DNA of 64,000 nt from Peribolospora baueri (taxonomy: Eukaryota > Basidiomycota > Peribolosporomycetes > Peribolosporales > Peribolosporaceae), in NCBI GenBank assembly GCA_029717555.1, contig JAMDHS010000077.1, positions 30,082 through 94,081 on the forward strand. The letters run 5' to 3'. The notes under the pieces are model-generated. The model was not told the DNA's origin. It saw nothing but the letters and a program-made list of their open reading frames with translations, and ran no database searches. Both the position numbers and the translations under genes were made by a program. This document shows, piece by piece, positions 20,686-40,127 of the stretch (within the stretch, counting starts at the first letter, position 1; each line of letters begins with the position of its first letter).

Positions 20686-22223
20686 ATGGCGGGCCGCATC
20701 AGAGAGGTATGGGCCAACAATATTGAGCAGGAGATGCAACACCTCAGGGAGACCATCGATAGGTATCCATTCGTAGCCATGGTGAGTGCCTTCTTCGAGA
20801 AGTTTTTGGTACACGCTGAAGTATGGAAACGAATTATATATATATATGTATATATATATATGGATAGATAGATAGATTCATAGCATGCAGACTTACCTCG
20901 GCTCATTTTTTTTTCTCGTAGGACACTGAGTTCCCAGGCATCGTAGCAAGACCGATAGGTACTTTCCGCGGCTCGAGTGACTACCATTATCAAACGCTCC
21001 GGTGCAACGTCGACTTGCTCAAGCTTATCCAGCTTGGTGTTACACTCTGCGACGAGCAAGGAAACCTCCCGCCAGACGTTTGCACGTGGCAGTTCAACTT
21101 TCGGTTTTCCATGAAGTAAGCGGCGAGCGAATGCAGTCTTCAGTTAATGTGCGGCATATGGCCAATGGGCACTCACTCCCACTCCATTTGCCTTTCGTCA
21201 TCATGTCCAGCAACGACATGTACGCTCCAGACTCGATTGACCTCCTCCAGAAAGCGGGCATCGACTTCAAGCGGAATGAGGACTACGGCATCGACGTGGA
21301 GGTGTTTGGAGAGCTCCTCATCACTAGTGGTCTCGTCTTGCTCGACGACGTCCGGTGGATTAGCTTTCACAGGTGAGAAATGATGGGCCACAGTGGAATA
21401 ACTACATCGTTGTCTCACCCGTCTTTCAATGCTCTCGATCATGCTGCTCGTCGCACTAAACAGCGGCTATGACTTTGGCTATCTCCTCAAAGTGGTCACC
21501 TGCTCTCCCCTCCCGGCACAAGAGGACGAGTTCTTCGAGCTGCTCCGGATTTGGTTCCCTTGCGTCTATGACATCAAATTTCTGATGCGAAGCTGTAAGA
21601 CGCTGAAGGGAGGTTTGCAAGACGTTGCGGATGAACTGCAGGTGAGTGCCGGGCTTGTAGGCTTGCATGTTGTCTTCCGCTGTGCTCACTGCTGATGTAC
21701 GGTCTCTCCCAACTGCTCCGCAGGTTGCAAGGATCGGACAGCAGCATCAAGCTGGTAGTGACAGTCTTTTGACGGCCAGCACGTTCTTCAAGATGCGATC
21801 CAAGTTCTTCCAAGACTCCATTGATGACAGCAAATTCTTGTGTGTACAGCCCTCTGCACGCCTAAACCTGCTTTCCCATCTGACTTATGTCTAACTGCAC
21901 GTCACTCGTCTCCCCTCTCCTTCTCCCTTCGCAGAGGCTGTCTCTACGGCTTCGCCAACCACAGCTCCAATCGTCTACCAACCCCCGCTCCTGCCCACGC
22001 CGCCGCTGCCGCTGCCGCCGCCTCCACCACCAACGGCTCTTACCCCTATCCTCCATTGAACAACCACAACCATGACTACGCTAACAATCCGCCATCAACA
22101 CCCAAAGATACGCACGCCAATATGATGCCTCCAACGCCAAGTCCTTATGGGAGAGGCGCCATGGGCAGCGAGAACCTTTTCGCCCGCAGCGCAATGGGTG
22201 CAATTGGCGCCGGGGACCGATGA
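20686..22223 (+). CDS. pop2: CCR4-NOT deadenylase subunit Pop2/Caf1
   Basis: Model join(20686..20781,20922..21115,21211..21372,21464..21641,21724..21839,21935..22223), 1035 nt, 344 aa. It starts [20 protein letters not shown]. The DEDD nuclease signatures are DTEFPG (exon 2), [19 protein letters not shown] (exons 3-4), VYDIKFLM and the C-terminal [16 protein letters not shown]. This is the RNase D-fold exonuclease that shortens mRNA poly(A) tails in the CCR4-NOT complex. The C-terminal 100 residues are an Ala/Pro/Asn-rich extension absent from short animal homologues. Upstream of the chosen ATG the frame stays open to about 20578, so a longer N-terminus is possible. Confidence 0.95.
20836..20876 (+). 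repeat. TA and GATA microsatellite inside pop2 intron 1
   Basis: Runs of ta (interrupted by tgta) from about 20837 to 20862, followed by three gata units, all within the first intron of pop2. Confidence 0.85.
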
Positions 22224-23316
22224 GATGAGGTTGTCGAGATTGGTTGGATATGCGAGATGGGCGGGCGCTTTGGAGAGGCGGAGGCCATGAGTCACTTCGC
22301 TGAGGGACAAAGTATGATGTGACCAGTGTACACTATCGTCCGGTTCAGACTTGAGTCAAGCGTGTATGCAAATATGTAATCACCCGAGGCGAGGGACAAT
22401 GGAACCTTGTTCTCTTTGTATTCCTCGCCCAGCCGTGTCTTTTTCGATTCTTACCTGTGCTGGCCGTTCCTCTTACTGACTCGGTTCATCTCTGTCTCCC
22501 TGCCATGTTAGATCGAGGTGCTTGGATGGTTTGGCAGTGCAAAGACGAATGATCCGTCAAAGTGAGGGTGGCTGAGTCCGCTTACTTTGTCGCCTCTTTT
22601 CAACTTAAAATGGAGGCGTTCAGACGTCCCGGAGGAAGCGCCGTGCAGCTATTCAGCCAAAACTTTGACAGTCCTTCCTTTCTTCATTTCCTTCCTTTCA
22701 TAACGATATACTCTGGTAATCTCTCCGTCCACATCTCCCCGTTTCTCTTCCTTTGTTATTCTCCCAGGTCAAGCATCCGGCGTTCCTGTATGCAACTTGC
22801 GCAACATTCGAGTCATAATGGTCGTGTAATGAGATCACTGTGATCAACCATCTTGTTGGGAGCTTTGCTTCTTTCCTAGGCGTCTTAGATGCTCTAAATC
22901 CAGGACAGCTCAGTCCTGCAGGCAACCGGAACGGATTGACTTTGACGTGCCATTCACTTAGACTATTTTTGCTGCAAATGCAATCGCCATTGTCCCACGA
23001 ATATCTCTTCGAGTCGCCAACGATAACTATCGGATATTTTCGGAGTCCACACGTCGAACGATTAGAATTAATGTTTCCGATAGTTTCAAAAGCTTGTCTT
23101 TCTGGTCAAACTTGCGTGCCTGATCTACCTAGGATACAGGTGCGATCAATATGCGTTATGGCATCCTGTGCGATCAATCTTGCGTCGCCATTGTCCGTTG
23201 CATGCAGTTTGGGACCCGAGCCGGTTCTCCTACCCGCGCCCCGCACATCCATCCGACGAGGGCCAGTTGAGTGTCTGTCCTCATCGAGTTTTGAGAACCG
23301 TTACTCGAGCGTCGTC
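22224..23316. other. Intergenic, left edge of the mating-type region, no supported gene
   Basis: 1.1 kb between pop2 and the pheromone gene, lower in GC than the flanks. An uninterrupted frame at 22840-23385 has no start context, motif or splice logic and overlaps the pheromone promoter. I treat it as chance. Confidence 0.55.
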
Positions 23317-23324
23317 TATATAAA
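23317..23324 (+). promoter_or_regulatory. TATA box (TATATAAA) of the pheromone precursor gene
   Basis: TATATAAA lies 40 bp upstream of the first ATG (23364) and about 106 bp upstream of the second in-frame ATG (23430). It is one of the clearest core-promoter elements in the window, consistent with a short, highly expressed transcript. Confidence 0.65.
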
Positions 23325-23363
23325 CAAGGGCCCCCTGTGCAAAGTCGTTGCCGCCAAGTTCTC

Positions 23364-23540
23364 ATGGACTCGCCGCCCACCTTAAGACCTGGCCACTCAT
23401 CCGTCACGCCTCGCCTCAACACCATTGTAATGGACCCTACCGTCCAATCTGACAACATCTCGGTCGTAAAAACAGATTCTGTTCCAACCAACCAGGAGAG
23501 CCCACCTCAGTCGCCTCCTACATCATGTGTTATTGCCTGA
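23364..23540 (+). CDS. mfa: Lipopeptide mating pheromone precursor (CaaX, C-V-I-A)
   Basis: A single-exon ORF of 58 codons from the first ATG, or 36 codons from the in-frame ATG at 23430. It is Ser/Pro/Thr/Gln-rich and ends ...QSPPTSCVIA, then TGA. Basidiomycete pheromones are made as 35-60-residue precursors of exactly this composition. The C-terminal CaaX box is farnesylated, cleaved and carboxymethylated, and the mature peptide is exported. C-V-I-A/C-V-V-A endings are known from smut fungi. A TATATAAA box lies just upstream, and a STE3-type receptor gene lies 4.5 kb away. No signal peptide is expected or seen. The mature N-terminus cannot be read from the sequence. Since a compatible partner supplies the ligand, this pheromone should not activate the adjacent receptor in a self-incompatible species. 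Confidence 0.85.
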   Translation: MDSPPTLRPGHSSVTPRLNTIVMDPTVQSDNISVVKTDSVPTNQESPPQSPPTSCVIA

Positions 23541-24561
23541 GCCGTACTGGTACGTCTTGTTCCTTTGTAAACCCCCTCCTACCTTTCGCCGTGTATTCAT
23601 GCCGCAACCACGTGTCCACAGGACAAGCCCTTACGTCAACTCAACCCTACTGTAACAGAATGAGGTATGTGCAAAAGGTGGTTCCTCCAAGACGAGCGCC
23701 CGGCGGCGGGAAGATGACTACCGTACAGGCGATTCCCACGGTGTCGGCCACGTGGCCAAGGTGATCGGGTCACCCACACCGTTACATGCCCCGTCCGGAA
23801 GAGGCGATCGTCCCGGAGAGCGGAAAGGGAAAAGAAAAATGGGGAAGAGGAGTAAAAAGAAAAGAAGGGAAGGAAACAGGGTAGAGATGAGGGAATGTGG
23901 AAATGAATGGGGTAAAATATGGCAATGAAACTGAGTTGGGAAGAGGGTCATAGGGGGCCGGCGGCGAGACGGCGGCGGCGTGCGCCTGGGCCGAGGTAGA
24001 CGGAAGACCCGAGAGAGCACGTCTTCCAGCGTTTCTTCCAGGCGTGAAAGGCAAGGGGAGGGAAAGAGAGCGACGGCCGAGTGGAGTAGGGAAGGAGAGC
24101 CGCGTCGCCGAAGGAGTGGGCGAATGAAGTCGGAGTGGTCCTCGTCGCTCGCGGCAAGGACCTCGACGACGTTAGCTTGGCCTCGATGAGCGCGTCCTGC
24201 GCAGTGTGAGGCGAGGGCAAGTTGCCAAGAGGGGAGGGGGGAGGAGGGCAGTCCGAGTCGGAGTCGAGGGCGAGGGCCGAGGCGCAAGGATTTGCCTCGA
24301 TGGATGCGTTCCGCGCAGCGTGAGCGGGGGTGAGATCGGCGGCGGCGGAGACGCAAGAATTTGCGGTGATGGCTGCGTCTTGCGCAGCGTGAGGCGAAGG
24401 CGACGCAGCCACTTCGAGGACGGCGTCTTGCGCCGCGTGAACAGCGGCAGTTTCGCGGGAACGTCCCTGTTCGAGGCGTCGCCGCTCGCGCTTTGCCTCG
24501 AGTAGTGCGGCCTGCGCAGCGCGAGCATCGGCGGTCCGGGGATGACGACGAAGCTCTCGAA
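23541..24561. other. Intergenic with degenerate repeats; no supported gene
   Basis: Between the pheromone gene and the NIP30 relic. Minus-strand frames (23718-24356 and 23948-24412) are open but rest on the repeated motif HAAQDA(A/V/L)(I/L)EA. They show no start context, splice signals or recognisable domain. They may be decayed coding sequence. Confidence 0.45.
24172..24522 (-). repeat. Five degenerate ~25-bp repeats encoding H-A-A-Q-D-A-like motifs
   Basis: On the plus strand, cores resembling gatggctgcgtcttgcgcagcg recur near 24182, 24300, 24366, 24425 and 24503, at 55-120-bp spacing. On the minus strand they read HTAQDALIEA, HAARNASIEA, HAAQDAAITA, HAAQDAVLEV and RAAQAALLEA. The region adjoins the 3' end of the NIP30 relic and could be a helical repeat tail that has lost its frame. 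Confidence 0.6.
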
Positions 24562-25414
24562 CTAGACGTCGTTCGAGACGTTGCAGCTCGCGGTCGCGAA
24601 GGCAGCTGCGAGGACCTCCTCGATGGCCTGCTCGAGCCGTGCCATAGCGCGACGACGCTCCCGTTCTAGAAGCAACTGCTTTCTCCGAGCAAGTAAAGCC
24701 AATCCTGAGTCCCGCCCACTCACTTTCGAAACTCTTGAAGTTCAGCCAGATCCCGCTCTTTCTTCTTCCTCTCGCTCTCCATCTTCTCCCTCATCACGTC
24801 GTCTAAGAACTTGCTCTCTTCCTCATCCAGACCGCGCCATTGGTTGCCTATGAGACGCGGAGATTTGTAAAAAAAATTCGGCATGAGGAATAAAATATTT
24901 CGATTTGCTAGGCATGCAATTGATCTGAGATTTGGACCCACTGAATCTCGTCATCTCCTCGAACTCGGCCTGTTTCCTATCCTTGTGCTCCTGGAAACGC
25001 TGTAAACCGGTACGGACGGAAAGATTAGCGAAGTTGCAATTGTGATTGAGCTGAATACAAAGGCGGAGTAGATATCTCACTTCGAAGAGCGAGCGTCCAT
25101 CGTAGTCACCATCAGTCGCTTCTCGTGCCGGTGGCTCTTGACCCAACCTGGCCGTACGGAGGAGAGGGTCAGTTGCCAGTTCAACGCAGCCCTTCATGAA
25201 AAGTTCTTTTAACCCCCAAAAATGATAAATACCACCATCAAAAACGCTATCGTGGCCTCTTTCTCCTCTAATCGCTCGGACGCTCACCGCTCATAAAGCC
25301 ACCCTATAATCAGCCTCTCTCCGAGCCCTCGCCTCCTCGAGCGATTCCTGGCTCACGAAGCGCGAGCCCACCGACCCAGCTTTTGCGGCGAGCCGCGCGC
25401 CGATGGTAGGTCCA
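24562..25414 (-). pseudogene. NIP30/FAM192A-like gene, copy A (frameshifted relic)
   Basis: Second copy of the gene at 30846-32184, with the same exon order: MDLPSAR..., LGQEPPAREATDGDYDGRSL, RLQEHKDRKQAEFEEMTRF, NQWRGLDEEESKFLDDVMRE. Exon 1 is broken. Relative to copy B it has lost one base after the GCGCG near 25395, so translation from the ATG at 25414 stops soon. It also carries an extra T near 25297 that gives a TGA just before the exon-1 donor. Later exons and splice sites are conserved. After the exon-4 donor the frame continues KKQLLLERERRRAMARLEQAIEEVL and stops at 24562, instead of the basic tail of copy B. I infer loss of function after duplication. Confidence 0.82.
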
Positions 25415-25741
25415 TTTCTGGATTCAGATCGTGTTGGTAGGACTTGGGAGCCTGTCTTGCAACGGCGACTAGTGCATCGAGGTTGGTTGGATGGGAAGGA
25501 GGAGGGTAGAATGCCCGACGCCTGGGCTTCGCTCAGATCACTGGAGCGAACTAGGGCCGAGGCGAGCACGTGATGTGATGTATTGCGTCGGGCTCCCTGC
25601 GTTATCTCGTTGCTGCTCCTCATCTCTCTCTTTTCCTCCACGCACGACGAGCCGCCAGTCTTCGTCTCTTTGTGTGTTTCTCTTCTTTCTGGGGCCTAAC
25701 CCTTGCAGAAACCCTCCACTGCCTCGGTGATCTCCTTCTAT

Positions 25742-25750
25742 ACAAAGGGA
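25742..25750 (+). promoter_or_regulatory. Perfect match to the smut pheromone response element ACAAAGGGA
   Basis: ACAAAGGGA is the published binding core of the HMG-box pheromone-response factor Prf1 of Ustilago. Here it lies just 3' of the HD2-A relic and about 330 bp upstream of the NIP30-A relic. A 9-mer can occur by chance in 64 kb, and I did not find exact copies close to the pheromone gene, the receptor or the HD promoters. Confidence 0.3.
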
Positions 25751-25919
25751 CGATCTACGTCCCGGACTCGGAGCCCATCAAGGTCGACCTCTTCTAAGGA
25801 AAATGGTGCGAGACTGACTCCATCGATGGTGGACGTGGGAAGACTGGGTCACGGTGGTACGGCAGGAGTTCTTGGACGGTGGCACCTTGATCCATGGTGG
25901 CGCGGATTCGATCGGCGAT

Positions 25920-26326
25920 GTCAGAGGGCGGTGAGAAGGGGCTGAGGCTGACAAGGGCGGGAGGAGGGTCTCTGCATTGGGAGGGATCCGTCCAGTTGGT
26001 CCTCGCGATGTTCGGGCGAATGCGGCAGCCGAGCGAGGAGGGCGACAGCTGGCCGAATTTGAAATATGACTTGCTCCTGTAGCTCCCCGGCTCTGCAACT
26101 GAACGTCGGAGTGAGCTCTTGGGATAGGGCCGGATTGAGTGCCCTGCCTGCCAGCCGGCAAAACCCCGCTTCGTCGACTTTGACCTGACAGGGCCAGAGC
26201 CGGTATAGAGGTGATCGTGGAGGGAAGAACGATCTCATCGGCGGGACGGATTAAATTTTTGAAAACAGAAGACGCAGTTGCTACAATTGACTGGAGGATA
26301 AGGAGGCGCGAGGGGACTGATGCCAT
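25920..26326 (-). pseudogene. HD2 (bW-like) mating-type gene, copy A: frameshifted and truncated before the homeodomain
   Basis: From the ATG at 26326 the frame reads MASVPSRLLILQSIVATASSV...DEIVLPST, collinear with HD2-B (LLLRSIVETSSSLVENL...DDILLPST). One extra base near 26174-26180 shifts the frame. The homology then continues in another frame as GFCRLAGRALNPALSQELT..., matching GFERLLTARDLNPVLLREVL of copy B. Similarity ends near 25920, well before the region that encodes the homeodomain in copy B, and no WF.N.R-like motif follows. The start is divergent from HD1-A, as in functional b loci. I consider it non-functional. A truncated peptide of about 50 aligned residues could still be made. 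Confidence 0.85.
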
Positions 26327-26616
26327 GGAGCTCTCAGCCTCTCAGGATGGCTGTTGGTTTGAAGACGAGGCTACGTACCGTCCATGTATATTTATGGCCA
26401 TCACCACGTCGAGACCGATCGAGGGACGACGGCGCCATTGTGTCCTATACGCGCCGTTCGCCACGTGGTCTCCATTGTTCTCTGCACGTCCGACGCCGCC
26501 AACCACATATTGATCCTTCAATCCCTCGTAGACAGCCCAGTTTAAGAGGGTTAGAAAAGGCGAAATGGATGCCACGGTTCCCTCCCACCTTTATCATCTC
26601 TACGTCCACCTTCAGC
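26327..26616. promoter_or_regulatory. Divergent HD2-A / HD1-A intergenic promoter
   Basis: A 290-bp spacer between the divergent HD starts, comparable to b-locus spacers. In-frame ATGs upstream of 26617 (for example the MPRFPPTF frame at about 26569) make the exact HD1-A start uncertain. Collinearity with HD1-B supports 26617. Confidence 0.55.
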
Positions 26617-27693
26617 ATGCTCCACGGCGCGGATCTTCACAGAGCTCTACTTTCTGTGGAGGCTCAATTTTTCGACTCCTCGAACGATTTGGATCTTGCA
26701 GTCTTCGTCAAACGCTGGTCGCAGCTCGCCTCCTCAGTTGCAGCCTGTATAAGCAAGGGAAGCCTCAACTCTGACACTGTACGGCTGGTTTTCCTAGTGG
26801 CCTCGCGTATTCGCATCATAACCGAGGAGCTTCTTGCCTTCGAACAAGATGCTGAGGAGATAGAGCAAGGCGTTTTCAACAAAGTTCGCAGCATAGTGAC
26901 CACATCCGCACCTTCTGAAATACAGCCTTGCTCCTCTCTTCAGCCTTCAGAACAGCCATCGAAGCCAGGAGCCAAGCGAAAGCGGACGACCGCCGAGAGG
27001 GAGGCCGACTACTTCGACACGCGCGCCCTCCGGGATTGGTTCCGGTCGCACCTTGACTATCCCTTCCCGACGAAGCAACGGAAGCAGGAACTAACAAAAG
27101 TATGGAGAACGTCAAGGCGGACGAAGATCAGGGGCGCGCCAGCGCCGCCGTTTCCGCTACCTCCGGAGGTGTTCAAGGACTTGACGTCCCACCAGGTCAG
27201 CCTATGGTTCAAGAACGCGCGTCGAAGGAGCGGCTGGACGGACTTCCAGCGCGAGTACGCCCCCGACGAGCGCAACAAGAAGGACACCACGCAGCTTGCA
27301 CGCGTTCTCTTCCAACTTGGCTGGGAGGGTCGAGAAGACCTTAGGGCCAGTGACCTTCCACCACCAAAGGAACCGCTCTCGGAGCCATCGAAAGAGTGCC
27401 GCAGGCTCTACCTGGAGATGCGCACCTACCTCAGCTGCGCCTCCTCCGAGCGCGTCCGACCATGGGTCGTCTTCGTCGTCGAGCGGCACTACCAGCGCAT
27501 TGAGATGATGAAGCGGGGAGAGCTGGAATGTGTTAAGAGAATTGGATGGCGGAAACCACTGACTCTGGAGCAGATACAAGAAGAGGAACGGCTGAGAGTC
27601 GAGAGGAGGAGAGCCCAAAAACGCAAGGCCAAGCGGAGGATGAAAGAGAAGGCAGAGGAAGAGAAGGTCGGCAAGGAGATGACGATGGCATGA
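26617..27693 (+). CDS. HD1 (bE-like) homeodomain mating-type protein, intact copy A
   Basis: A single-exon ORF of 358 aa starting MLHGADLHRALLSVEAQF. The N-terminal third (LLSVEAQFF...FVKRWSQL...RIRIITEELLAFEQ) has the layout of the variable, dimerising N-terminus of fungal HD1/bE proteins. The homeodomain lies at ~residues 135-210 (DTRALRDWFRSHLDYPFPTKQ, an insertion, then DLTSHQVSLWFKNARRRSGW), with the invariant W-F-x-N-x-R of helix III present. The C-terminus is basic and charged (RRAQKRKAKRRMKEKAEE), suggesting a nuclear signal. In basidiomycetes, HD1 pairs with an HD2 from a different allele to form the transcription factor that drives dikaryon or filament development. Its adjacent HD2 partner is a relic; the only intact HD2 is in block B. 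Confidence 0.9.
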   Translation: MLHGADLHRALLSVEAQFFDSSNDLDLAVFVKRWSQLASSVAACISKGSLNSDTVRLVFLVASRIRIITEELLAFEQDAEEIEQGVFNKVRSIVTTSAPSEIQPCSSLQPSEQPSKPGAKRKRTTAEREADYFDTRALRDWFRSHLDYPFPTKQRKQELTKVWRTSRRTKIRGAPAPPFPLPPEVFKDLTSHQVSLWFKNARRRSGWTDFQREYAPDERNKKDTTQLARVLFQLGWEGREDLRASDLPPPKEPLSEPSKECRRLYLEMRTYLSCASSERVRPWVVFVVERHYQRIEMMKRGELECVKRIGWRKPLTLEQIQEEERLRVERRRAQKRKAKRRMKEKAEEEKVGKEMTMA

Positions 27694-28059
27694 ACGGAAC
27701 GGGAAAGGGAATCGGAAGGTGCCGAGCAAGACGAAGAAGAGGAAACTCCTCGCCGACGACGACGAGATCCCCGTTTCCCTTGTCAGCCGTGACATGGCCC
27801 TATCACGGTAGGGTTATCTCTAGTGTATATACAGCCCTTCTCGCCCTGCTCGGATGAGGGAGGAGAGTCCTTCCTTCTTCCTTCAGCGTAAAACTGCTAC
27901 AAGGTGATCCTATCAAGCTATGTAAAGCAGTCGGCCATAAAATAAGCAAATTCGAAAACAGGTTAAGTCCAGCACACCCTGGTGATCCACGGACAGAGCA
28001 ACGCCTGCAAAGGAAGAGTCTGTAGCTACAGGAGGCGCCCCAAAATTTTCGAGGTTGAG
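27694..28059. other. Convergent 3' intergenic region
   Basis: 366 bp between HD1-A and the receptor stop. The first ~80 bp still resemble the HD1-B 3' coding region (KTKKRKLLADDDE in a different frame from HD1-A). HD1-A may therefore once have been longer. Confidence 0.55.
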
Positions 28060-29503
28060 TTAGGAAAGATGAGTGGCCTGAAGGCGTTCGGCAGTTATGG
28101 GAATTCGTGAACTTGCGGACAATTCAGAGCAAGCAACCAATCCTTTTTCAACGGCGTCATAAGAGTCGGCTGGAGCTCTTGAAGAGAGAGCGACCGGCAA
28201 GAAGTCCGGAAGCTCGATTCGAGTTGATACCGCGCTGTAGGCCAGTTCACATAAATCAGAAAATGCAAGTGCAGACATTACTAAACTCAACCTCTCACCC
28301 TGAATTTCCTTCCTGAGTAGAAGTTCTTTCTTTCGTAGAAGCTTCATCGTGGGAGGAGGGCCTCTCTTGAGACAAATTTCCACCTTGCGAAGAATTCCCT
28401 CCTTTGGAGCTCATCGATGTAGGCTTACGCGTGATACCAAGTAGGGCCAACACACGCATGTAGTCCCGTATAGCCTCTTTCGTGAAGCCAAAAAAAACGA
28501 AAAACAAGAAGCCAGCAATGACTCCAGTCCAGCGGCCAAGTTCGAGTTGAAGGCGAGATTTCGGGTCGGTTTCAGCTAGGTTGTACTGATACGTAGCGTT
28601 GAAGTCAAGGTGAACCCAGTCCCAGTTAATGTAAGGCTGAAGTGGCAAAGTAGTCGCGTTGGAGGCGAAGATGAAGACATTGATGGGTAGGCCAACCAGT
28701 AGCTCCGTGAGCGATAGTGCCATGAGACGCACGTAGTGGTCAGGAGTGAAGCTGCTGTGAGAAGAGTTCAGAACCTCCACGAAGTCCCGCCGTGCCTTGA
28801 TAAAGTACGAAAAGGCAAGTACTGGAAGAAAGTTGTAAAGAAGTTTCAGTGCACTTCTTGAGTAAATGTCTCCCGCGCCACGAGCATGCTCACAGTCGAA
28901 AACAACAGTAACAAGGCTGAGAATTATGCCCCAGATCTGCCCCAGAAAGATTGCGGCCCAACTCCAGTATATCGGCGGATCCGGGCCGAAGTCAGAGATG
29001 ATGTTCATGCGATGACCTTGAACGACGATGTGGAGAGCCATCATGAGGAAGGGAATGCCCAAACCGATGCTGAGGTCAATGATGAGGTCGCGTTGACGAT
29101 CCTTTTTGGTGGACCAGACAGTACGTTGACCTCCGAAAGCTTCCAATTGCCGCGCAATGCATAGGTTCGCCGCCGGGAAGCCTACACCCGCAGCATAGAT
29201 GATCTTCACGGCTGTGAGAGCAGGGAAACAAGGGGAAGTAAGCATGGTGTAACCTGGAAGACATCATATGTAACGTCGCAACATACCAATATCGCACCAT
29301 ATCGGAGAGTGAATGTCGAGGTTCCCAGCCCAGACGATACTGTTGACGCAAAGGATCAAGTTGACGATCGAGACCCAAAAGATCAAGATAAAAACACCAG
29401 GGTTCCGCTTCGACCAATGCCAGCGGATACAGACGAGCACTAAAACGACAGAGATCAGGGAACAGGCACTGAAGGCGCGAGCAACCTGATCATAGGATGA
29501 CAT
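28060..29503 (-). CDS. ste3: STE3-type pheromone receptor (GPCR)
   Basis: Model complement(join(28060..28234,28299..28821,28894..29211,29288..29503)), with the first donor within one base of 29288; about 410 aa. The protein starts MSSYDQVARAFSACSLISVV and has seven hydrophobic segments. Diagnostic STE3 features are IRWHWSKRNPGVFILIFWVS, WAGNLDIHSPIWCDI|AVKI, AANLCIARQLEAF, the TM4-TM5 loop with WAAIFLGQIWGII, YFIKARRDF and FGFTKEAIRDYMRVL after TM7. A Ser/Thr/Gln-rich tail follows. The 72-nt intron at 28822-28893 is a multiple of three without a stop and must be removed to give VFDLLAFSYF. The protein senses the lipopeptide pheromone of the opposite mating type at the plasma membrane. It lies between the two HD blocks. 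Confidence 0.94.
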
Positions 29504-30845
29504 CGTAGATGCCAGAGGAGATGATGAACGAGCTTAATGAGTAAGTCAGAGTTAGAACGGGGCGAGGAATGGACGCTCGCGCAAGGAAGCAAGCGTGGAG
29601 GAGGGGAAGGGGTGGTTCTGCAAGGACAAACGATAGAACTCGAAGGCGGCCGCCTTTTATCTACAACGGGTTTTTCGAGGACGAGCGTAAAAAGCGCACA
29701 TAGCCCTTCCACGGGCACCCGCCCCGGTGGCGGAGCAGGGTTGAGTAACAAAGAGCGACAAGGTATTTACAAGACACCTAGTGCTATGTCCAACGAAGCA
29801 GAGGATACTCGTCCTTGCAAAACTTGACTGTTGGTGTTGTGAGGACCGACGTTGTCAGCTATTATCCTGCTGTTTGTGTACAGTAGCTTGTGAAGGCCGA
29901 GGGTGGCGTCGGTCGTCTGCGCGAATAAGATTCAAAAAGGTTCCATCATGGTTTATCTCCATTGTTCCGAACAATAGTTTACGTAGTAGATTGCTCACGC
30001 GCTGACTATTAGGTAAAGCACACGGCCATTGTATTCGCAGGTCCTGTGTGTTCGTCGACTCGTTAAAGTACTGTAACACCTTGTATGCGCGACACACAAT
30101 AAATGTACCCCGACAAGATGGGTAGCGGGATGCGTATGCGCTGCCGGTAGTGGGCACGTTGGCCGATGGGTCACACGCTCTACACCGTCCTGTGCCATTG
30201 TCCTCTGTCTGGGCCACCACCCGATCACATGCGCCTGCCGAACGCCAAGAGAGCAGATCACCGCGAGGGCCGCAACTGTAGACGTCGACTATGTCAGGTC
30301 CCGCATAGCCCGTGCTCTTAAGTTGGTACTTTCCGTGTCAAATCTCTTGAACCAATATACACGAAAGATGCCGGTGTCCAGTACATATGGCTAGTCAGCT
30401 TTCTAGCCATCGACCCTGTCCCACAAGCGGCACCAGCAGCGCAGTGCAAGATGATTTGATTAGATTAGGCAGGGTGGATATTGTTTAATCCGCGCCTTCT
30501 CATTCCGCAGAACATGACAATATGGCCGTTACGGAAGGTCAAGAGCAACTAGTGACAGTCGGTAGTCCTGGTTAAGGATTAGCAATATCCAAATGAGTCA
30601 GACAAGTATATCAACACTGTGTGTTTCGGCTAATCAGCACATCCTTTCCGCTCTCATTGAATATCGTCAAAGTTATTCTTCGAATTCAGATGTTAGTGAG
30701 CGTATACCGTCACGTTTCAACCTGCCAGCGCTCGAAAGCCCGGATCGCCAGCATTGAGGTGAGCTGCCTGTTTTCGGCTGCTCACCTTCAGACCTGTGCT
30801 TAATTCGTCACTGCATTCAAAATACCTGACAGATGAATCGGTCCC
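29504..30845. other. 1.3-kb intergenic region, searched for a second pheromone gene, none found
   Basis: Lies upstream of the receptor and downstream of NIP30-B. I checked both strands for small ORFs ending in a CaaX box and found none. The receptor promoter should lie just above 29503; aacaaagagcg near 29747 is only a weak resemblance to a pheromone response element. Confidence 0.55.
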
Positions 30846-32184
30846 TCAACCGCCATCTTCGACTTTCCTCCGCTTAGCCGTAGTGTCCTTCTGGGAGGCT
30901 GACGTCGCCTCCGTTGTTCGATTGTCTTTGCTTCCTGATGGGTGTGACGACTTCCCCACCTCATCATCCTTTGCGTTCTTCGCAGAATTTGCTTTCTTCC
31001 CTTCCGACTCTGGTTCTGGTTTGGGCCGTTTGTTGGAGGAAGCAGTGGGTGCTTCTTCTGCCTTGGCCTTGGCCGCGACCGTCGCCTTCGCAGGACCAGT
31101 CACAGTAGCAGGAACCTTCTTCACAACGCCGAGCATGGCCAATCGGTCCTTATTGCCCTTCTTCTTCTTCTTTGGCGGTGCGGTCGCACTTCCGCTTCCG
31201 GGCAAAGGCAGATTTTGTTGCTTCGAGGAAGACGGGAAAGTGGATGCTGCGGAGGGTCTGCTGTTGTTGGGAGATATGGAGGCCCACGTCGACGGGGGGG
31301 AGGTACGGCCGGCGCCGGAGAGGAGCTCGATGGGATCGGTCGACGGTCGTTCTTGTGCTGCTTGCGCTCTGCGGTCATAGTTTTACAGACAAACGAGAGA
31401 ATGGCCGAACAGACCGTAAGCGACAAAGGTATTTCAAATAGACTGCTCCCTGCGAGCAAGCCAAACCGATTCTAAGTCCAGCCCACTCACTTTCGAAACT
31501 CCTGAAGTTCGGCCAAATCTCGCTCTTTCTTTTTCCTCTCGCCCTCCATCTTCTCCCTCATCACATCGTCTAGGAACTTGCTCTCCTCCTCGTCCAACCC
31601 TCGCCATTGGTTGCCTGTGAGACACAAGGAATCGCAAAAAATTCATAATAAGGAAAATTACATGTTATTGTGTGTTATGCATGCAAATCATATGCGACCT
31701 AGACTCACTGAACCTCGTCATCTCCTCAAACTCGGTCTGTTTCCTGTCCTTGTGCTCTTGGAGACGCTGCGAACCGATACGAAAGCAAAGCTCAGTGGAG
31801 TTGTAATTGTGGCTGCCCCAAGAGGCAATTACGAAGGAGGATTAGGTCGCTCACTTCGAAGAGCGAGCGTCCATCGTAGTCGTCATCGGCCGCTTCTCGT
31901 GGCGGTGGCTCTTGACCCAACCTGGTCGTAGGGAGGAGAGGTCAGTTGCCAGGCCGCACGCAAGCCTCTCAGAAACTTACGCCGAGAAAAAGCTCGAAGC
32001 TATCCTATGAAACGGCATCTCGGGCTTTTTCTCGTTCTACTTTTTCTAATGCTCACCGCTGATAAGCTGCCTTATAGTCAGCCTCTCTCCGAGCCCTCGC
32101 CTCGTCAAGTGAGTTCTGGCTCACGAAGCGAGAGCCCACCGACCCGGCTTTTGCGGCAAGCGCACGCGCCGAAGGTAGGTCCAT
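30846..32184 (-). CDS. NIP30/FAM192A N-terminal-domain protein, intact copy B
   Basis: Model complement(join(30846..31368,31491..31614,31709..31766,31855..31921,32057..32184)), 900 nt, 299 aa. It starts MDLPSARALAAKAGSVGSRF and contains the conserved NIP30 block: FVSQNSLDEARARREADYKAAYQR, LGQEPPPREAADDDYDGRSL, RLQEHKDRKQTEFEEMTRF, NQWRGLDEEESKFLDDVMRE. The linker is Ser/Pro-rich, and the tail is basic with PPKKKKKGNKDRLAMLGVVKK and KRRKVEDGG, probably nuclear. Human FAM192A (PIP30) binds the PA28-gamma proteasome activator; the fungal role is not established. An upstream acceptor (gctcgcag, about 31450) would give a short form ending KEQSI. Copy A at 24562-25414 is a relic, so this is the functional one. 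Confidence 0.82.
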
Positions 32185-33113
32185 TTCGGAACTCAAATTC
32201 TGTCTGGAGGTTTATGAACCGCTTTGCAACGGCAACTGGTGCGTCGAAGGTTGGTTGAAAGGTAAGGAAGGGAGTGGAATGCTTGAGGCCGGGGCTTCGC
32301 TCAGATCAACTGGGAGCGGACAAGGGCGGAGCAAAGCGGTCTGGGCTGCGGTAGGCCGCGTTTTCATGGCCTTTACGTACGCTCAGACGGATCTCGCACT
32401 GCGTTTGTGCGTCGGCATCGATTGCCTTTGTCGGCCCTCTCTTTTCAAATGAGACAATGTTCGAGTACTGATGAGGCTAGCGTACAAGTGTCAGTTAGGA
32501 AAATACTGTATCACTAAGATTGTGCCTACGTATTTGGCGTGCGAGCAAGCGATGCGGTGGAATGGAGATGCGAGGGTGACAGGGGCCTGTCAGTAGAGCC
32601 TGAACGTGAAAGGAAGACGCCAAAGGGATGTGCACAAATTCGAAAAGGATGGAAAGACGAGAAGCCGTGCTAACTAGCGCTTAAAGTCAAAAGGGAATCC
32701 ACGCAAGACTGATTAAGCAATCCACCGTCAGAAATTTCTGTCAAGCGGTGCCCGTCCGCTCGCCACAATTGAAAGGCGAAAAGGACAGCTCGCAAAGAGT
32801 CTCGGCCCCGATGGTGGTAGGTGAAGGGTTATGCAGTGGCTCCGATTCGGTTGGAGCCAACGGAACGTCCAGGGGATGTCGGGAATGGATCGCCATGGAC
32901 GAGGTGGTACCGAATGTAGACTCAACTGAAGGGCGGGGCAAGTCGATAGCAGGCTGTAAGTGACGGCCGAGCAGGATCGTCCGGCTGCGGCGCAGAGTTC
33001 TTCGGAATAGGCGACACGTTACGAGTGTCGCCAAGAAAACGAGATGACAGAGAATCTTGGACGCCGCCTTTGCGATCCTCAGACGGGTCACCGGGAACTC
33101 CTTCAAAGAAGGC
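32185..33113. other. Intergenic within block B, no supported gene
   Basis: Between the NIP30-B start and the HD2-B stop. A 121-codon minus-strand frame (32741-33106) begins just past the HD2 stop in another frame. It shows no motif or splice signals and may be a relic of a longer HD2 C-terminus or chance. Confidence 0.5.
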
Positions 33114-34911
33114 TCAGTTGCCGGACTTGCCGATGCGCTGGATTTCGGTGAGGAGCATCATTTCCGCCGCTGTGAGCTGCATCCGCGCCTCCTCGTAACG
33201 CGCGAGGACGTCCAGAAATGATGAGGAGAGTTCGTCTTTGTCTTTCGGTGCTGGTGACGAGCCTTTGCAGAAGGAAGGAGATGGTTGGATTGCTGCGTCG
33301 CGAAGAGTTGGCGTGTTGCCTGTGCTCTCGACAGAGTTCCCGTCCATTGCACTAGCAACGGCCGTGAAGATGACCGTCGGCAGCGAGGAAGGAGCGGAGG
33401 AAAAGGCGGAAGGGCGTAAACGCTTCGACGCCGGAGTACTGTCCTTAGAACCTCCGTACAAGTCCAGAACTCCCAGGTCGTCGAGGGGAGAAGGATGAGG
33501 TGAATTGTTGGAGAAATATCCCGAAGGCTGACAGTAGGCAATAGGCTCGGGGCTCTCGACGGAGCTAAACAGATGTGACGTGTCGGGCGGCGTTACGGGG
33601 CCGTTTAATTCTTCGCCAGAGCTGGGGAGAGATTCGAAACTGGGTGCGCGAGAATTCGCCGGGGAGGAAGTCAAAGAGGGGAAATTGGCAAAAGAGCGCG
33701 CAGACAATGACGCATAGGCAGATGTATCCAATTCGTTAGACCACGTTGACGGGGATGATAGCCGAGGTCGACCATCTAGTGGCCAGCGCGGTTGGTGCTG
33801 GAAGCCTAGCATTGCGTCTCTTCGAGCCTTTTTCTCCACCGGATTCGTCCAGGTTCTACTTGAGCTGTCCATTTCCCTTCCTCTCTTCCGACTGCGCATC
33901 GTAAAGCCCTGGGACAATCGTAGAATGTCCTCTGTCGGCGAAGAGAAAGGCGCGTCGTCCTTTTCTTCGCCCGTGGCTGGTAACCAGTCATTTTTACGCC
34001 GGGGGCCCAACACTGCATCCCATCGAACTCTCTTCCCCGCTGTGCTCGGCCAGGTCACATGTGCATTTTCGCCGTCCCTTCTCCTCTTCGTGTCCGGAGT
34101 CATCCAAGACATGCAGGTTGCTGGCGACCTTGGAGTGTCTCCGCTCGGCGAGGAGGGCGGCGTGTCATTGTCATCGTCGCATTCGGAGATCTGAGCCTTG
34201 ACATTCTCCCTCCTCTGTCGTCGCCGAGCAAACTGGAGAGAAATGAGAGGGAATGGAATGACCCGCGTTCAGTCCGCGTTCAAGCGAAGGTCTAAGAAAA
34301 ACACGACTCACCCATTGCTCGAGTTTCTCTACCGTTAGACCAGTGTGTTCGGATAAAAGATCCTCCTCGGCCCGTGTGAGCTCGTCTAGCTGGTCGAAAA
34401 TGTCCTCGAGAAGGGAGATCAGGGGAGGCAAGTTGCCATCCGGGCCAAAACAGTCATAGGGCGCCTTGTCGAAACCACAAGACAGATGAGTATCGATGAT
34501 TGCCAGGCATCCTATCTGGAGCTCCTTGTACGCGGCCGCATAACGCGTTTCGACCAGTCGATGGTCGCCGTGTCGAGACAAAGTCCTATTAGGGTGCGAT
34601 AGCTTGGGGAGGCACGCAATGAGGCTGTCAAATCGGAGCTGAGCTCGCTCTCGTAACTCTTGAGCTGAACGACTGAATGCACGAAGAACTTCTCGCAACA
34701 AAACCGGGTTCAAATCCCTAGCTGTTAGCAAACGCTCAAATCCATTGTCGCCGTCACTTTGGCCGGGTAGGTTCAGAGCAGGTCTTGCGAAGGTCGACGT
34801 AGAGGGGAGGAGAATATCATCCCTAGGAAGTCGTAAATTTTCGACAAGCGAGGAGGAAGTCTCTACGATGGAACGAAGAAGAAGATGGCGTGAAGAGAAT
34901 GCTGGAACCAT
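33114..34911 (-). CDS. HD2 (bW-like) homeodomain mating-type protein, intact copy B
   Basis: Model complement(join(33114..34232,34312..34911)), 572 aa; one 79-nt GT-AG intron (34233-34311) falls exactly within the recognition helix, between Trp and Phe. The N-terminus MVPAFSSRHLLLRSIVETSSS precedes a helical variable region (LLTARDLNPVLLREVL, AQELRERAQLRFDSLIACL). Helices II and III read LTRAEEDLLSEHTGL and VEKLEQW|FARRRQRRENVKAQ. The position normally held by the invariant Asn51 (W-F-x-N-x-R) is Arg here, while Arg53 is present. A long Ser/Pro-rich C-terminus follows with basic clusters (PDTKRRRDGE, MRSRKRGREMD). HD2 should heterodimerise with a non-self HD1. It is divergent from the HD1-B relic, and its only intact local partner is HD1-A. 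Confidence 0.87.
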
Positions 34912-35225
34912 GTCGTTCAGTGTAGGGGAGGAGATGGAGGTTGGTTTCAGGTGATGGCGACGTTCCGTCCATTCTTATACGCGCCTCTGAACCAATTGCT
35001 GCTCTAGGCGCGCGACGACCGCTATTGTTGCCACGTGGTTTTATTGTCCTACTCCACAGCTGCAGACCTGGACAGCATGTACAAAGGCTGTCGTCGAGAT
35101 TGTGTTGGAATAAGCGATCGGTCTCAAAGTACTTAATAAAAGGAGTGCATGAACGAGCGCCCGTTCTCAACATCCTCTTTATCTCCCTGCTCTACCTTAC
35201 TCCCGAGTTCACCTCCGCGTTTTAC
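34912..35225. promoter_or_regulatory. Divergent HD2-B / HD1-B intergenic promoter
   Basis: A 314-bp spacer between divergent starts, similar in size to the copy-A spacer (290 bp). It contains gtacaaaggct at about 35077, a partial match (ACAAAGG) to the smut pheromone response element. Confidence 0.5.
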
Positions 35226-36263
35226 ATGCTCGGCAACAATGACATTCATGAACTTCTCCTTTCGGTGGAGGCTCAATTCTCAATTCTCTGACTGATACAG
35301 ATCTTGTGAACTTCCTTGAACGCTTGTCGGAGCTGAGCTCGTTGGTGGTGGCAGCCTTCAGCGCGGCACCCTCGAGACCGATACCGTTCAGCTGGCTGGC
35401 CATGTGGCTTCGCGGATTCGTACCGTCGACGAAGAAGGGGTTGGACCGACTTCCAGCGCGAGTACGCCCCCGACGCGAGCAAGAAGGAGGACCGCACGCA
35501 GAAGAAGAGGAAACTCCCCGCCGACGACGACGAGCACGAAGGCGACGAAAAGCAGCCCTTTTTGAATGGTCTGACGACGACCACTTGTAGTAGCAAGTGC
35601 GGCCGACTTGCGGTCGAGGCGTCTTCTGTGGCGACGAGCTCGACGCCTACGTCTACGCCCATCGTGACGACGACATCTCTCCGTTCGGACTCGTCTGCCG
35701 TGTCCGTTTTCACCTCGCCCAGCAGCCTCACGGAGCCGGACACGATGCTCACCAGGTTCTCGTCACTCTCGCCGGCCGCCGCCATCAATCCCGTCGACCT
35801 GGCCACGCAAAAGGCTTCCGATACAGGAACTCCCTCCCTGATCTCGCTTTTGATCCCCAACGGCATATCTTGTGCAACTCTGGCATCTGACGCCGACACT
35901 ACTCAGTCCTTGGCCACATCTCACAATGGAAATGCCTTCCAACAAGCGTATCACTTCATCGGCGACACCAACGTGGATAGGTTTGACGTCTCCAACATTA
36001 CGAGTCTCACTCCGCTCTTCTGGATACCCTTTCCAGGCTGCCGCCATCCCCTTGTGACCTCGCCTCATCCATGCGTGGCTAGTCGGGTTTCCATAGTCCT
36101 CTTTCCGGTCAACGTTAGCGATCTCAGTTGGACGTCATGTCGTCGTTTTGAAATTCTGCTCTGCGTCCGGTACGCCCCTGTCTTTGTCGACTCATCCTTT
36201 GTATACCATACATACCGCTGTCTCCGTCCCTGCCGATGTCTCGATCGTGCCCTCTCATTGTGA
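35226..36263 (+). pseudogene. HD1 (bE-like) mating-type gene, copy B: frameshifted, homeodomain deleted
   Basis: MLGNNDIHELLLSVEAQF aligns with MLHGADLHRALLSVEAQF of HD1-A, then TGA at 35289. The homology resumes in a second frame (DTDLVNFLERLSELSSLVVAAF) and a third (ETDTVQLAGHVASRIRTVDEE, matching SDTVRLVFLVASRIRIITEE). It then jumps directly to GWTDFQREYAPD at about 35440, skipping the ~150 residues that contain the homeodomain in HD1-A. Downstream, a frame of about 270 codons stays open to 36263 (KKEDRTQKKRKLPADDDEHE, then Ser/Thr-rich), longer than the HD1-A tail. With at least three frame breaks and no homeodomain it cannot encode a functional HD1. Confidence 0.85.
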
Positions 36264-36913
36264 CCTGTGTGATCCACAAGCATGCGCCGTTTCGCTTTGT
36301 CTCTCCCGACCACGCCTCTTTTTCAATGGGCAGTGCACATGAGCCCTTTGTCTGCCTCGATGAGGCTCCTGCAGATGGCTCATAATTTTGGACACCCTAC
36401 CACGTCATGCTGTCCATTCCCGACCTTTTTGACAATGGCCTGCCTATGTATGACCCGAAAGGTGGACATCACCGTTGAAGCAAGGAAGGATCCAGTTCGC
36501 ACGGTAAAATTGAGCCGACTGTGAGTACGTCTCCCTCCAATCCACCCCGCTCACTCCACTCTCTACTGCACAGGTATCCGTATTCACTATCTCCTGCGTA
36601 GGAAGTGTTCACACGGCTGTCGGGATAACTAGACCCGTTACTTGGCAAAGTTCGACGGTGATGCATGCACCAGAGAACCAACCATGCCAGATGAAAGATA
36701 TTTTACACCCTACATTGACGGGAGGACTAAGACGTCCATTTTCCCTCTTTTTGGCCCTTCCCTCTCCCCAGACCAGAGGGACTCCACAGACTGGCTGACC
36801 CATGACCCGAAACAGTGCGGTGCCAATCTTCGACCTGAACGCCTGAAGGAATAGACAAGCAAGCCCCCACAGCCCCACGCCTACAGCCGCTTCGCTCACG
36901 TAGATTTAGGTGG
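36264..36913. other. Intergenic, right edge of the mating-type region
   Basis: 650 bp between the HD1-B relic and the Whi5-like gene stop. Lower in GC; no supported gene or repeat. Confidence 0.55.
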
Positions 36914-38336
36914 CTAGGCCTGACGGACGAGCGGACTCACAGGACTGGGAGGAAACGTCCTCATCCTCCCATCCGACTCTTCCGCCTTGCCGCGCACCTC
37001 CCTTCTCGTTTCTCGCGCCCGCTCTTCTCCTCCACCGCCGCCGCCGTTCGCGGGAGAGAGCGGCGTGGGCAGGGAGTCGCCGTTCCCCAACTTCTGTGAC
37101 AGCGACTGCAACCGTGCCTGGGTCGGCGCCGGCGTCGGCGAGCTGAACACATCGTCCGCGATCGGACCTCCTCCTCCTACGCGCGACGGGGGAAAGTGGG
37201 GCTCACGTCGGGGTCGCTTGAATTCAGGAGCGAAGACGGGATGGGAGGACGAGTCGTGAGGCCTCTTCCCACTCGCCCCCGACGATAGCGGCGGGACCAC
37301 CGATGAAGCACCAGGACCGGCAACGGAGGAGGGATGGCGCGACCAGAAGTCTGCGTAGCTCGTCGTCCCGTTGTTGTGCAACGCGGTAGCGGTGGCGGTG
37401 GCCGTAGAAGTGGCGGCGGCGACAGATGAACTGGATGGGACATTGGAATGGCGGTATGTCAAGCTCGCTTCGATGTTTGCGCGATCCGCTGAGCTGTGCT
37501 GCGAGATGGAAGAAGACACAAGACCGATTCCGCCGCCGAGAGGCGAAAGCGTCCGAGCGGCTTGCTCAGCAACGTCGTACGCGCTCGCACCCGCAACCGC
37601 AAACGAAACGGTCCCTCTCCTCCTTCCATGCGCCTGAAAAGCCGCCGTGCCCTTATCCTTGTCCGCTCTTCTCTCGCCCACGCCCTCGACGATCTCTGCG
37701 GGTGGCGCCAGAGCCGGAGGAGACGGTCGATTGGACGTCGAACCGGGTGGATGGAGAGGTCGAGCGGGCGAGCGGTAGTGATGGTAGTACAAGTTCTCCA
37801 CCTCTGGCAGGGATTGATGAACCTGAGAAGCGGGCGGGTTCAGATGCGAAGACGCATGAGGACAGAGGAGATGATTGTGAGCCAAACAAGGAAGCAGACG
37901 CCGACATCGGTAGCGAGAAAGATAGAATGGACACCAAATGACGTCTTGGCCAACTTACCCATCCATGATCCACCTTGAGCATCGCGTACTGAAGCCGGAC
38001 CTTCAAGTGCTCTGCGAACTGCCGACGCAAACAGACCCGCTCGTCCGCCCGTCAGCCCCAGCCCCAGCCCCCGGACCCGCACCACACCCGAAACACACGC
38101 ACCTCGTTCATCCTCGCCCGCTCCTGCTGCTGCTTCTTCTTCATGCTCCCTGGTGTCGTCAATGGCGCCGCTACCGTGGCCGTCGCCCATGTATGAACGT
38201 CGTCGGCCGTCTGCTGGCTCTCTGGCCCTGACCTCGGATGTCGATCATGGCCCGTCGACGGGAGATGCGGCTGCGACACGGAGGGCGACGAAGTGGGTTG
38301 GAAGGGTGGCACGGGCGAGCGAAGGGTGGCTTCCAT
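36914..38336 (-). CDS. Whi5/Nrm1-like G1/S transcriptional repressor candidate
   Basis: Model complement(join(36914..37822,37959..38018,38103..38336)), 1203 nt, 400 aa; introns 84 and 136 nt. Mostly disordered, Ser/Pro/Ala-rich. The three exons join into one conserved-looking block around residues 70-120: ERARMNEFAEHLKVRLQYAM, LKVDHGWVHQSLPEVENLYY, HHYRSP. This resembles the short GTB/Whi5-like motif (basic-hydrophobic helix R-L-x-x-A-x-x-K-V followed by HGW and SL-x-E-V-E) by which fungal Whi5, Srl3 and Nrm1 proteins dock onto SBF/MBF. The many SP/TP sites would suit CDK control. The similarity is short and the assignment tentative; the gene structure itself is solid. Confidence 0.6.
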
Positions 38337-38682
38337 GGCGATATCCTGAAGAGGCTGACGAACCGAACCGACGAGGCGGGGAGTGGGGCGCACAACAAAC
38401 AAGAGACGTCTCGGTGGCCTGACCAGTCCGACGTTCGTCTATCTACGTGCATACATAAGCCCGTCCCATCTGATCCCGCCACGCGAACGCGGGCAACGCG
38501 AAAAGCAAGAGGTCACGTGCGAGGAGAAGGGGCTTCTCGGAAGGCCACCTCGAGGGCGCGACAGAGGTAGAAATAGAGATGAATGGAGGGATGGAGGCCT
38601 TCCGGCTTCGCCCTTCCAACCCGTTGTCGACGTGGAATGGACATTTGATTGCACTCTAGATGGTAGCGACGAGAGAAGCGAT

Positions 38683-39671
38683 CTACGCTGAAGGCACTCG
38701 CTCCTCCAGCTCTCCACCCTCTACCACGCCGAACCACCACCTGGTCATCTCAAACTCCTCCCGCTCCTCCTCGTCAGCACCCTCTCCCTCCGGCCTCTCC
38801 CCCCGCCTCAGCATTGGCCTCCAATCGATGCGACCAGCGAACGGCGTGCGAGAGAAGACCAAGGGGTACCACAGGCGGTCGTCCGGCCACATCTGCTGGA
38901 AGGGCACTTCGGAGAAACCGTACCAGCGTGGGGCCATCTCTTCTGTTCTGTAAGACGGCGACGAGCGAGTGGAGCAGATGCGGAGAAGGAAGGCGAGGGA
39001 CAGCGTGAGTAAAGAGAAGTAAGGGAGCGAAAAAAGTGAGGATGAGCAACGGAGCAGCGAACCAGCGACCGATGCCCGACAGACGCTCACTCGGCTTCGA
39101 CGCCCTCCCACCGGCTCGCCACGAACACCCTCACATCGTGTGCCCGACCGTGGTCCCCCTTCTCCTGTCCGACGTGAACCACCCGGCCGATATATCTCAG
39201 CTCTTCCGCCTGCACTCGCACGCTCGCCTCCTCCAACAACTCCCGCACCGCCGCCTCTCGAGCCGACTTGTCCGATGGCTCCACCTTGCCGCCAAAGCCG
39301 TTCCAGAGGCCTGCGCCGAAGCCGCGCTTCTTCAAGCCGAGGAGAATCTGTGAACCGTGAACAGTCCACCGTTCATAGAGAACGCGAGAGAGGGAAGAGA
39401 CATTCGGCGAGCCGACAAGCGAGTGAGCGTGAGCAGATCCTCGGGCAGTTACGGTCAGCTAACTCGGTCGTTCCTTCTAAAAGACATGGAAGGGAAACGC
39501 GGGACTTGCCTTCTCTCTCTCAGCGTCGATCAGGAAGACGAGCGTGAACACCTTGTATCGCTCTACCGCCAGCCACGCACCATCCTCGTCTCCCTCCATC
39601 CCCTCGCAGGAACGAGCGTGCTCTCGGACGAAGCGGTGGCCTTGGAACGGCGGTGGGGAGCGGGCGGTCAT
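38683..39671 (-). CDS. MTH1-like Nudix hydrolase (oxidised purine nucleoside triphosphatase)
   Basis: Model complement(join(38683..38947,39091..39347,39510..39671)), 684 nt, 227 aa. The N-terminus is MTARSPPPFQGHRF...ERYKVFTLVFLIDAEREK|ILLGLKKRGFGAGLWNGFGG, then the Nudix box GGKVEPSDKSAREAAVRELLEEASV (G-x5-E-x7-R-E-x2-E-E), and the MTH1-typical ETEEMAPRWYGFSEVPFQQM with WPDDRLWYPL, the substrate-pocket WPDD motif. The family hydrolyses 8-oxo-dGTP and related oxidised nucleotides, keeping them out of DNA. The first intron (39348-39509) uses a GC donor (AAG|gcaagt). At 227 aa the protein is longer than animal MTH1 (156 aa) because of an acidic C-terminal extension and an N-terminal lead. Confidence 0.9.
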
Positions 39672-40127
39672 CGTCCAAACAAGTTAGATGGTGAGCGTGA
39701 TGATGGTGGTGCAAGTTCACGACGAGGGGATCTTCTTACGGAGTAGCTCCCCCAACCCCCCTTTGGCCCGGTTGGCCCGGTCTTCTTAAGCCGACTACGA
39801 ATGGCATCGCACGGCACAGCAACCTACGGGCATAGCCATAAGGCTCAACACTGTAGGATGGCTCCAGACGACTACATGACTCGCTATCCGGTGAGAGCTC
39901 TTCTCTTCCAATGACGAACGGACGACAGAGCGAGCGAGGAGGAAAGGGGCAAATATAGGAATAGAAATAGACAAAAAAATGTAACGAACGTATGCGGCGC
40001 GATGAGGACGAGAAAGGACAAAAGGCAAGTTGAAATACATTGATGGCAGTTCGCGAGGTTCGAACATGGTCCCTGTCCCCTATCTCTTCTTTCTTTCTCT
40101 GCCCCGTTCGACCTTGGCTGGCCCTCC
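39672..40127. other. Intergenic, no supported gene
   Basis: Between the MTH1-like start and the sla2 stop, both minus. Minus-strand frames of 90-225 codons here are antisense-like or intron-spanning noise. Confidence 0.5.

Follow-up and report, generated by a model that had tools for sequence, protein, structure and literature searches.

Introduction

In basidiomycetes other than the one considered here, the HD1 and HD2 homeodomain (HD) proteins of a single mating-type (MAT) allele do not drive sex together, whilst those of different alleles do. For species with two incompatibility checkpoints, the path to self-fertility is an open question. Here we describe a locus of Peribolospora baueri in which one open HD1 gene and one open HD2 gene survive in two different copies of a NIP30-HD2-HD1 block that flank the pheromone receptor gene STE3. 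The window analysed is a stretch of 64,000 bases (bases 30082-94081) at the right end of contig JAMDHS010000077.1 (94,081 bases, hereafter C153) of assembly GCA_029717555.1, and all positions below are counted from its first base. Judged by its gene content, the region is a mating-type region of the basidiomycete kind with linked pheromone/receptor (P/R) and HD genes.

Several described systems share part of this arrangement. In Cryptococcus amylolentus, a single heteroallelic Sxi1/Sxi2 pair is both necessary and sufficient; self-fertility, with formation of clamps, basidia and spores, was seen in progeny that combine a P/R-fused HD allele with a compatible one (PMC13059729). The genome of such progeny has two HD alleles, of which one sits at the receptor locus; however, these progeny were engineered, their HD pairs are intact and their second HD allele is unlinked (PMC13059729), whereas the locus described here is natural, has both blocks within 12 kb and appears stripped to one cross-allele pair. 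The homothallic species Phaffia rhodozyma and Cystofilobasidium capitatum also complete sex from a single genome with one HD1 and one HD2, but these form one ordinary divergent pair, with no second HD block mentioned in the portions available; moreover, the HD proteins of Phaffia interact weakly at most, Phaffia has two receptor/pheromone sets, and an HD2 homodimer may operate in C. capitatum (PMC4915694, PMC8545103).

The fused MAT loci of Trichosporonales and pathogenic Cryptococcus combine P/R-HD linkage with reciprocal loss of HD1 and HD2 between haplotypes, although those losses lie in different mating types and here both blocks and both losses lie on one chromosome (PMC6730849, PMC12510652). 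For the self-fertile Sporobolomyces johnsonii strain CBS 5470 (as Sporidiobolus), the authors suggested a self-compatible HD pair derived from recombination between parental alleles, but that strain has a single HD pair with two alleles of the receptor, and the accessible text mentions no residual second HD block (PMC2916851). Flammulina velutipes also has HD genes at two separated places in its split HD subloci, but its HD and PR loci are independent and one of the subloci retains an HD1/HD2 pair specific to the strain (PMC5100862).

A reading made from the sequence alone (the sequence-only reading below) knew of no described MAT locus with the present arrangement. A search of the open-access literature, which leaves most subscription papers outside its scope, likewise returned no MAT locus in which STE3 stands between two reciprocally decayed HD blocks. 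The route to such an arrangement was anticipated by published proposals (PMC9296135, PMC4915694, PMC2916851), among them that recombination yielding a compatible HD1/HD2 pair is a route to homothallism (PMC9296135, PMC4915694). In the portions of the papers examined, this joining of HD1 and HD2 has so far been either inferred or engineered.

Results

Two direct NIP30-HD2-HD1 blocks flank a single receptor gene

STE3 (28295..29503, minus strand) has an open reading frame of 391 amino acids once a single 33-base intron (29286-29254) is removed, and its second exon by itself matches the Pfam STE3 family (E = 1.9e-59). The genome searched comprises 22.1 Mb in 178 contigs, and in all genome searches with a profile or a protein as query only the best candidates were scored. 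Within this scope, neither the STE3 family nor the receptor protein revealed a second receptor, the next match having an E value of 0.05. To the left of STE3 lies copy A of the NIP30-HD2-HD1 block (24675..27766, the limits of its homology to copy B, no strand assigned), and copy B lies to its right in the same orientation.

Because of large deletions, the blocks were aligned piecewise. Their NIP30 parts (24675-25561 and 31442-32331) are 78% identical over 904 columns without large gaps, with an E value of 0.0 in a two-sequence comparison and of 2.5e-193 in the genome search. Directly after the homeodomain, the HD1 tails (27220-27294 and 35427-35501) are 85% identical, and a further stretch (27733-27766 and 35501-35534) reaches 97%. 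The 5' ends of HD2 and HD1 share 62-67% DNA identity between copies and are also recognisable at the protein level, where HD2 matches over 46 amino acids at 59% and 50 amino acids at 40% (E = 2e-12) and HD1 in three pieces at 44-67%. These alignments bear out the claim of the sequence-only reading that two direct copies of the block flank STE3. Copy A is cut short on both sides, inside NIP30, where the last exon is gone, and inside the C-terminus of HD1; copy B is therefore the more complete and probably occupies the original place. The right flank of copy B (36264-42000) is single copy in the genome.

For copy A and its right margin (24600-28200), the sole DNA match outside C153 is a stretch of about 50 bases on contig C137. 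This stretch (27804-27852) lies directly to the right of copy A, recurs on C137 at 85% identity and is possibly a mobile or breakpoint-associated repeat. A few hundred bases to the left of the copy A breakpoint, 24269-24393 contains a 56-base direct repeat in two copies that are 79% alike, with starts 69 bases apart. The motif GCCACGTGGT is present in both HD1-HD2 intergenic regions (26327-26616 and 34912-35225) despite their strong divergence.

A candidate pheromone precursor of 58 amino acids with a CVIA C-terminal end (23364..23537, plus strand), identified by a CAAX scan, lies to the left of copy A, so that HD1-A stands between it and STE3. It matches the Pfam Pheromone family weakly (16.3 bits, E = 0.022; cut-off 22 bits) and occurs at a single place in the genome, and a genome search with the Pfam pheromone family did not list it.

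One HD1 and one HD2 survive in different blocks

Copy A retains only HD1, whilst copy B retains NIP30 and HD2. HD1-A (26617..27693, plus strand) is an open frame of 358 amino acids running from an ATG at 26617 to a stop at 27691-27693; it is an HD1-class gene with a TALE-type homeodomain at approximately residues 141-204 (WFKNARRR), matching both Homeobox_KN (E = 1.7e-9) and Mating_N (E = 4.4e-6). A homologue search of a protein collection returned one distant relative at 27% identity. Its sibling, the HD1-B pseudogene (35226..36263, plus strand), has a stop at codon 22, frameshifts and two deletions: one of about 389 bp removes nearly all of the homeodomain, leaving only its last residues, and another of 439 bp follows it. 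A serine/threonine-rich C-terminal frame is nevertheless kept in HD1-B up to 36263; this region is absent from copy A, and HD1-A ends before it.

HD2-B (33114..34911, minus strand; exons 34911-34312 and 34232-33114) encodes 572 amino acids and is open once a GTGAGT...CAG intron (34311-34233) inside homeodomain helix 3 is removed. This helix (34232-34320) reads LEQW and, across the intron that falls between W and F, FARRRQRREN. No homologue of HD2-B was returned from the protein collection, and in the genome its protein found only HD2-B itself and the HD2-A remnant (residues 5-53 at 56%). That remnant (26020..26326, minus strand) begins at 26326, shifts frame some 50 codons later and can be followed as far as about residue 106 of HD2-B; it retains the N-terminal part only, the homeodomain and C-terminus being gone, and no homeodomain remnant was found in the interval, which falls about 1.8 kb short of its counterpart in copy B.

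Both broken HD genes have thus lost their homeodomain, and the losses are complementary, as the sequence-only reading had stated. The surviving HD1 and HD2 sit 5.4 kb apart, in agreement with the distance it had given, and both ancestral divergent pairs are broken, so the locus lacks the divergently transcribed HD1/HD2 pair of MAT loci with linked P/R and HD. As an open gene of each class, HD1 and HD2, is present, it also differs from the single-HD MAT alleles of the Cryptococcus/Trichosporonales type. For both surviving genes, the coding case uses stop-free length alone: in random sequence of the same composition, 358 stop-free codons would arise with a chance of about 1e-6 and 572 with a chance of about 7e-10.

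NIP30-A was lost late

NIP30-B, a member of the FAM192A/Fyv6 family (30846..32184, minus strand), has a five-exon model in which no disabling change was seen, and the spliced model, in a query that departed from it by one substituted and one extra residue at two exon junctions, matches Pfam PF10187 (E = 7.2e-31). The NIP30-A pseudogene (24675..25415, minus strand) comprises exons 1-4; two 1-base indels in exon 1 lead to a stop, and there is no last exon beyond 24675. Across 121 codons of exons 1-4, the copies differ by 27 synonymous changes in 75.3 sites and 12 nonsynonymous changes in 287.7 sites, giving a synonymous divergence (dS) of 0.49 (95% interval 0.29-0.77), a nonsynonymous divergence (dN) of 0.04 and a dN/dS ratio of 0.09 (bootstrap 95% interval 0.04-0.18); the amino acid is changed in 11 of the 121 codons. 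Had the A branch been neutral since the split, 45-60 nonsynonymous differences would be expected, as compared to the 12 seen (P < 1e-9), and the four intron stretches are only 67-80% identical. On these counts, NIP30-A still worked during most of the time over which A and B diverged and was disabled late. As constraint is seen on both copies, A and B diverged while both worked. The sequence-only reading had taken a duplication as the origin of the blocks; the two copies stand, but a duplication is probably not the starting point, as the NIP30 exons indicate that both copies stayed functional through most of their divergence, a better fit to two alleles or haplotypes brought together than to a copy decaying from birth.

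The HD N-termini are far more divergent than NIP30, with 40-67% amino acid identity in pieces, and it is this part of the HD proteins that carries self/non-self recognition (PMC2916851). Indels in multiples of three account for 6 of 12 in HD2-A and HD1-B as compared to 1 of 17 in the non-coding DNA of NIP30 (P = 0.011), a hint from the alignments that HD2-A and HD1-B were also functional for long.

Discussion

Two alleles joined in cis as the leading reading

We consider it slightly more probable than the reverse that two formerly separate functional HD alleles, each from its own haplotype, now lie in cis around the receptor and have decayed to HD1-A and HD2-B, leaving the HD checkpoint self-compatible. 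Two working copies of NIP30 at one place have their natural setting in two alleles; an old tandem duplicate is possible but less simple. The A and B blocks would have diverged as alternative alleles, either MAT haplotypes or orthologues of two hybridising lineages, until they were joined by a rearrangement, which may have been an ectopic or unequal exchange of MAT haplotypes or have followed hybridisation. NIP30-A, HD2-A and HD1-B, and with them the other cross pair HD1-B/HD2-A, would then have become redundant and decayed. HD1-A/HD2-B would remain as the single cross-allele pair, present in every cell if A and B represent two specificities. Because HD1 and HD2 proteins of different alleles form an active dimer, this pair should act within one haploid genome and might render the fungus self-fertile or nearly so. 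Self-compatibility (homothallism) from HD1-A/HD2-B is accordingly our leading reading of its biology, by analogy with the systems above. The fuller form of this proposal, that the locus is a natural, built-in heteroallelic HD heterodimer in which two old specificities were captured around one receptor and pared to a working cross-allele pair conferring self-compatibility at the HD level, is attractive but falls somewhat short of probable in our estimate.

If true, the locus would show in natural sequence the intermediate step that models of homothallism propose. As both parental blocks are preserved with their scars, the order of allelic divergence, joining and loss would be readable from the sequence itself. 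The reciprocity of the losses is a separate matter. The sequence-only reading saw in it selection to break the original pairs, but the pattern does not lead to this conclusion. With independent losses and the condition that one HD1 and one HD2 survive, four outcomes are possible and two of them are reciprocal, so that chance gives reciprocity half the time; reciprocal loss by itself is therefore no proof of selection.

Several observations weigh against the joining of two alleles into a working pair. HD2-B has an Arg (WFARRR) at the position of the Asn of WFxNxR, which we take to be the normally invariant, DNA-contacting Asn of the homeodomain, and may be impaired; it is thus an HD2-class gene lacking the canonical motif, and it scores 21.0 bits (E = 2.9e-4) against Pfam Homeodomain, just below the cut-off of 22.9. 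Loss of this Asn need not abolish function, as Heterobasidion has HD2 proteins without a bona fide homeodomain that probably depend on HD1 for DNA binding (PMC4915694). Codon usage did not mark HD1-A or HD2-B as coding, with 0.08 and 0.01 per codon in frame, near the values of other frames. Only one candidate pheromone gene was found alongside the one STE3, so that autocrine signalling would be a supposition. The higher synonymous divergence of HD as compared to NIP30 (42.7 of 83.8 versus 27 of 75.3 sites; Fisher P = 0.057) is no more than suggestive, and the excess of in-frame indels depends on the alignment, seven settings giving P values of 0.011, 0.069, 0.011, 0.030, 0.106, 0.030 and 0.127. 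No relative carrying A and B as alternative alleles was found.

Four other explanations compete with this reading, and the odds attached to them overlap. An ancient tandem duplication within one MAT haplotype, with both copies functional for long before random loss removed one copy of each gene, fits the direct orientation and tandem position of the copies, as well as a reciprocal outcome that random loss yields half of the time; in that case HD1-A and HD2-B could be incompatible, and the fungus may be heterothallic in the usual way, its P/R and HD genes being linked. We regard this as unlikely though deserving of weight, since it requires strong constraint on both NIP30 copies in one genome for most of the divergence, though copy A is now cut short on both sides, and the HD N-termini diverge in the way that alleles do. 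Alternatively, each of the joined alleles may already have carried a single HD gene. Such alleles are established (PMC6730849), they would explain the reciprocal loss without recourse to chance, and the joining step would be common to this account and to the leading reading, so that one does not exclude the other. Given that the in-frame indels of HD2-A and HD1-B, alignment-dependent as they are, hint at long function of both, we judge this alternative quite unlikely.

The weakness of the HD2-B homeodomain could instead reflect a relaxed or asexual lineage whose MAT locus is decaying, HD1-A and HD2-B being merely genes that have not been lost yet. Uninformative codon usage is compatible with such decay, and early stops in HD2 are known from asexual red yeast strains (PMC3236058). 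However, frames of 358 and 572 stop-free codons beside heavily broken siblings, together with an open STE3 and the Heterobasidion precedent already cited, make it distinctly unlikely. An assembly artefact, in which two haplotypes of a diploid, a dikaryon or a mixed culture were joined end to end, would explain why the sequence resembles two haplotypes on a short contig (94 kb), but it seems very unlikely: there is only one STE3, which with unique spacer lies between the blocks, the right flank is single copy, and genuine haplotypes would be expected to retain functional HD genes, barring an earlier loss from each.

Other homeodomain genes and neighbouring features

Genome profile searches returned four places for Homeobox_KN and five for Homeodomain, amounting to six genes besides HD1-A; the Homeodomain search did not list HD2-B. 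Five of these six are of the ordinary WFQN or FFQN kind. The sixth, on contig C110, is a TALE gene with WFINARRR, a form that HD1 also has, but its long exon contains no Mating_N; on its sequence, we take it to be a general regulator and not a MAT gene.

The window contains a RhoGEF and a lipoamide-dehydrogenase-like gene, which had suggested a Cryptococcus-like MAT; we dropped this idea, as the RhoGEF looks CDC24-like, with PH and PB1 domains in the adjoining stretch of the contig. Protein comparisons did not place the species: two phenylalanine ammonia-lyase (PAL) exons gave lower scores with the red-yeast enzyme (1t6j, 1y2m) than with several other PAL entries, and among the 120 of 954 SLA2 matches listed the best has 73% identity, whilst the first to carry an organism name is from Termitomyces, at 69%. 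In 2-kb steps along the window, guanine-plus-cytosine (GC) content has its minimum over STE3 (50.4% at 28001-30000), with 52.5% at 22001-24000 and at 30001-32000 and 54-62% in the remaining steps; lower GC at fused MAT loci is the topic of a section heading in PMC6730849. Two open reading frames near MAT (46580-47761 and 62808-63998) match rhamnogalacturonase/pectate-lyase-like domains. Elsewhere in the genome, 5S ribosomal RNA matches, one of them short, lie on at least nine contigs (C10, C27, C61, C97, C101, C110, C120, C123 and C162), a lower bound from the 47 of 1428 candidates that were scored.

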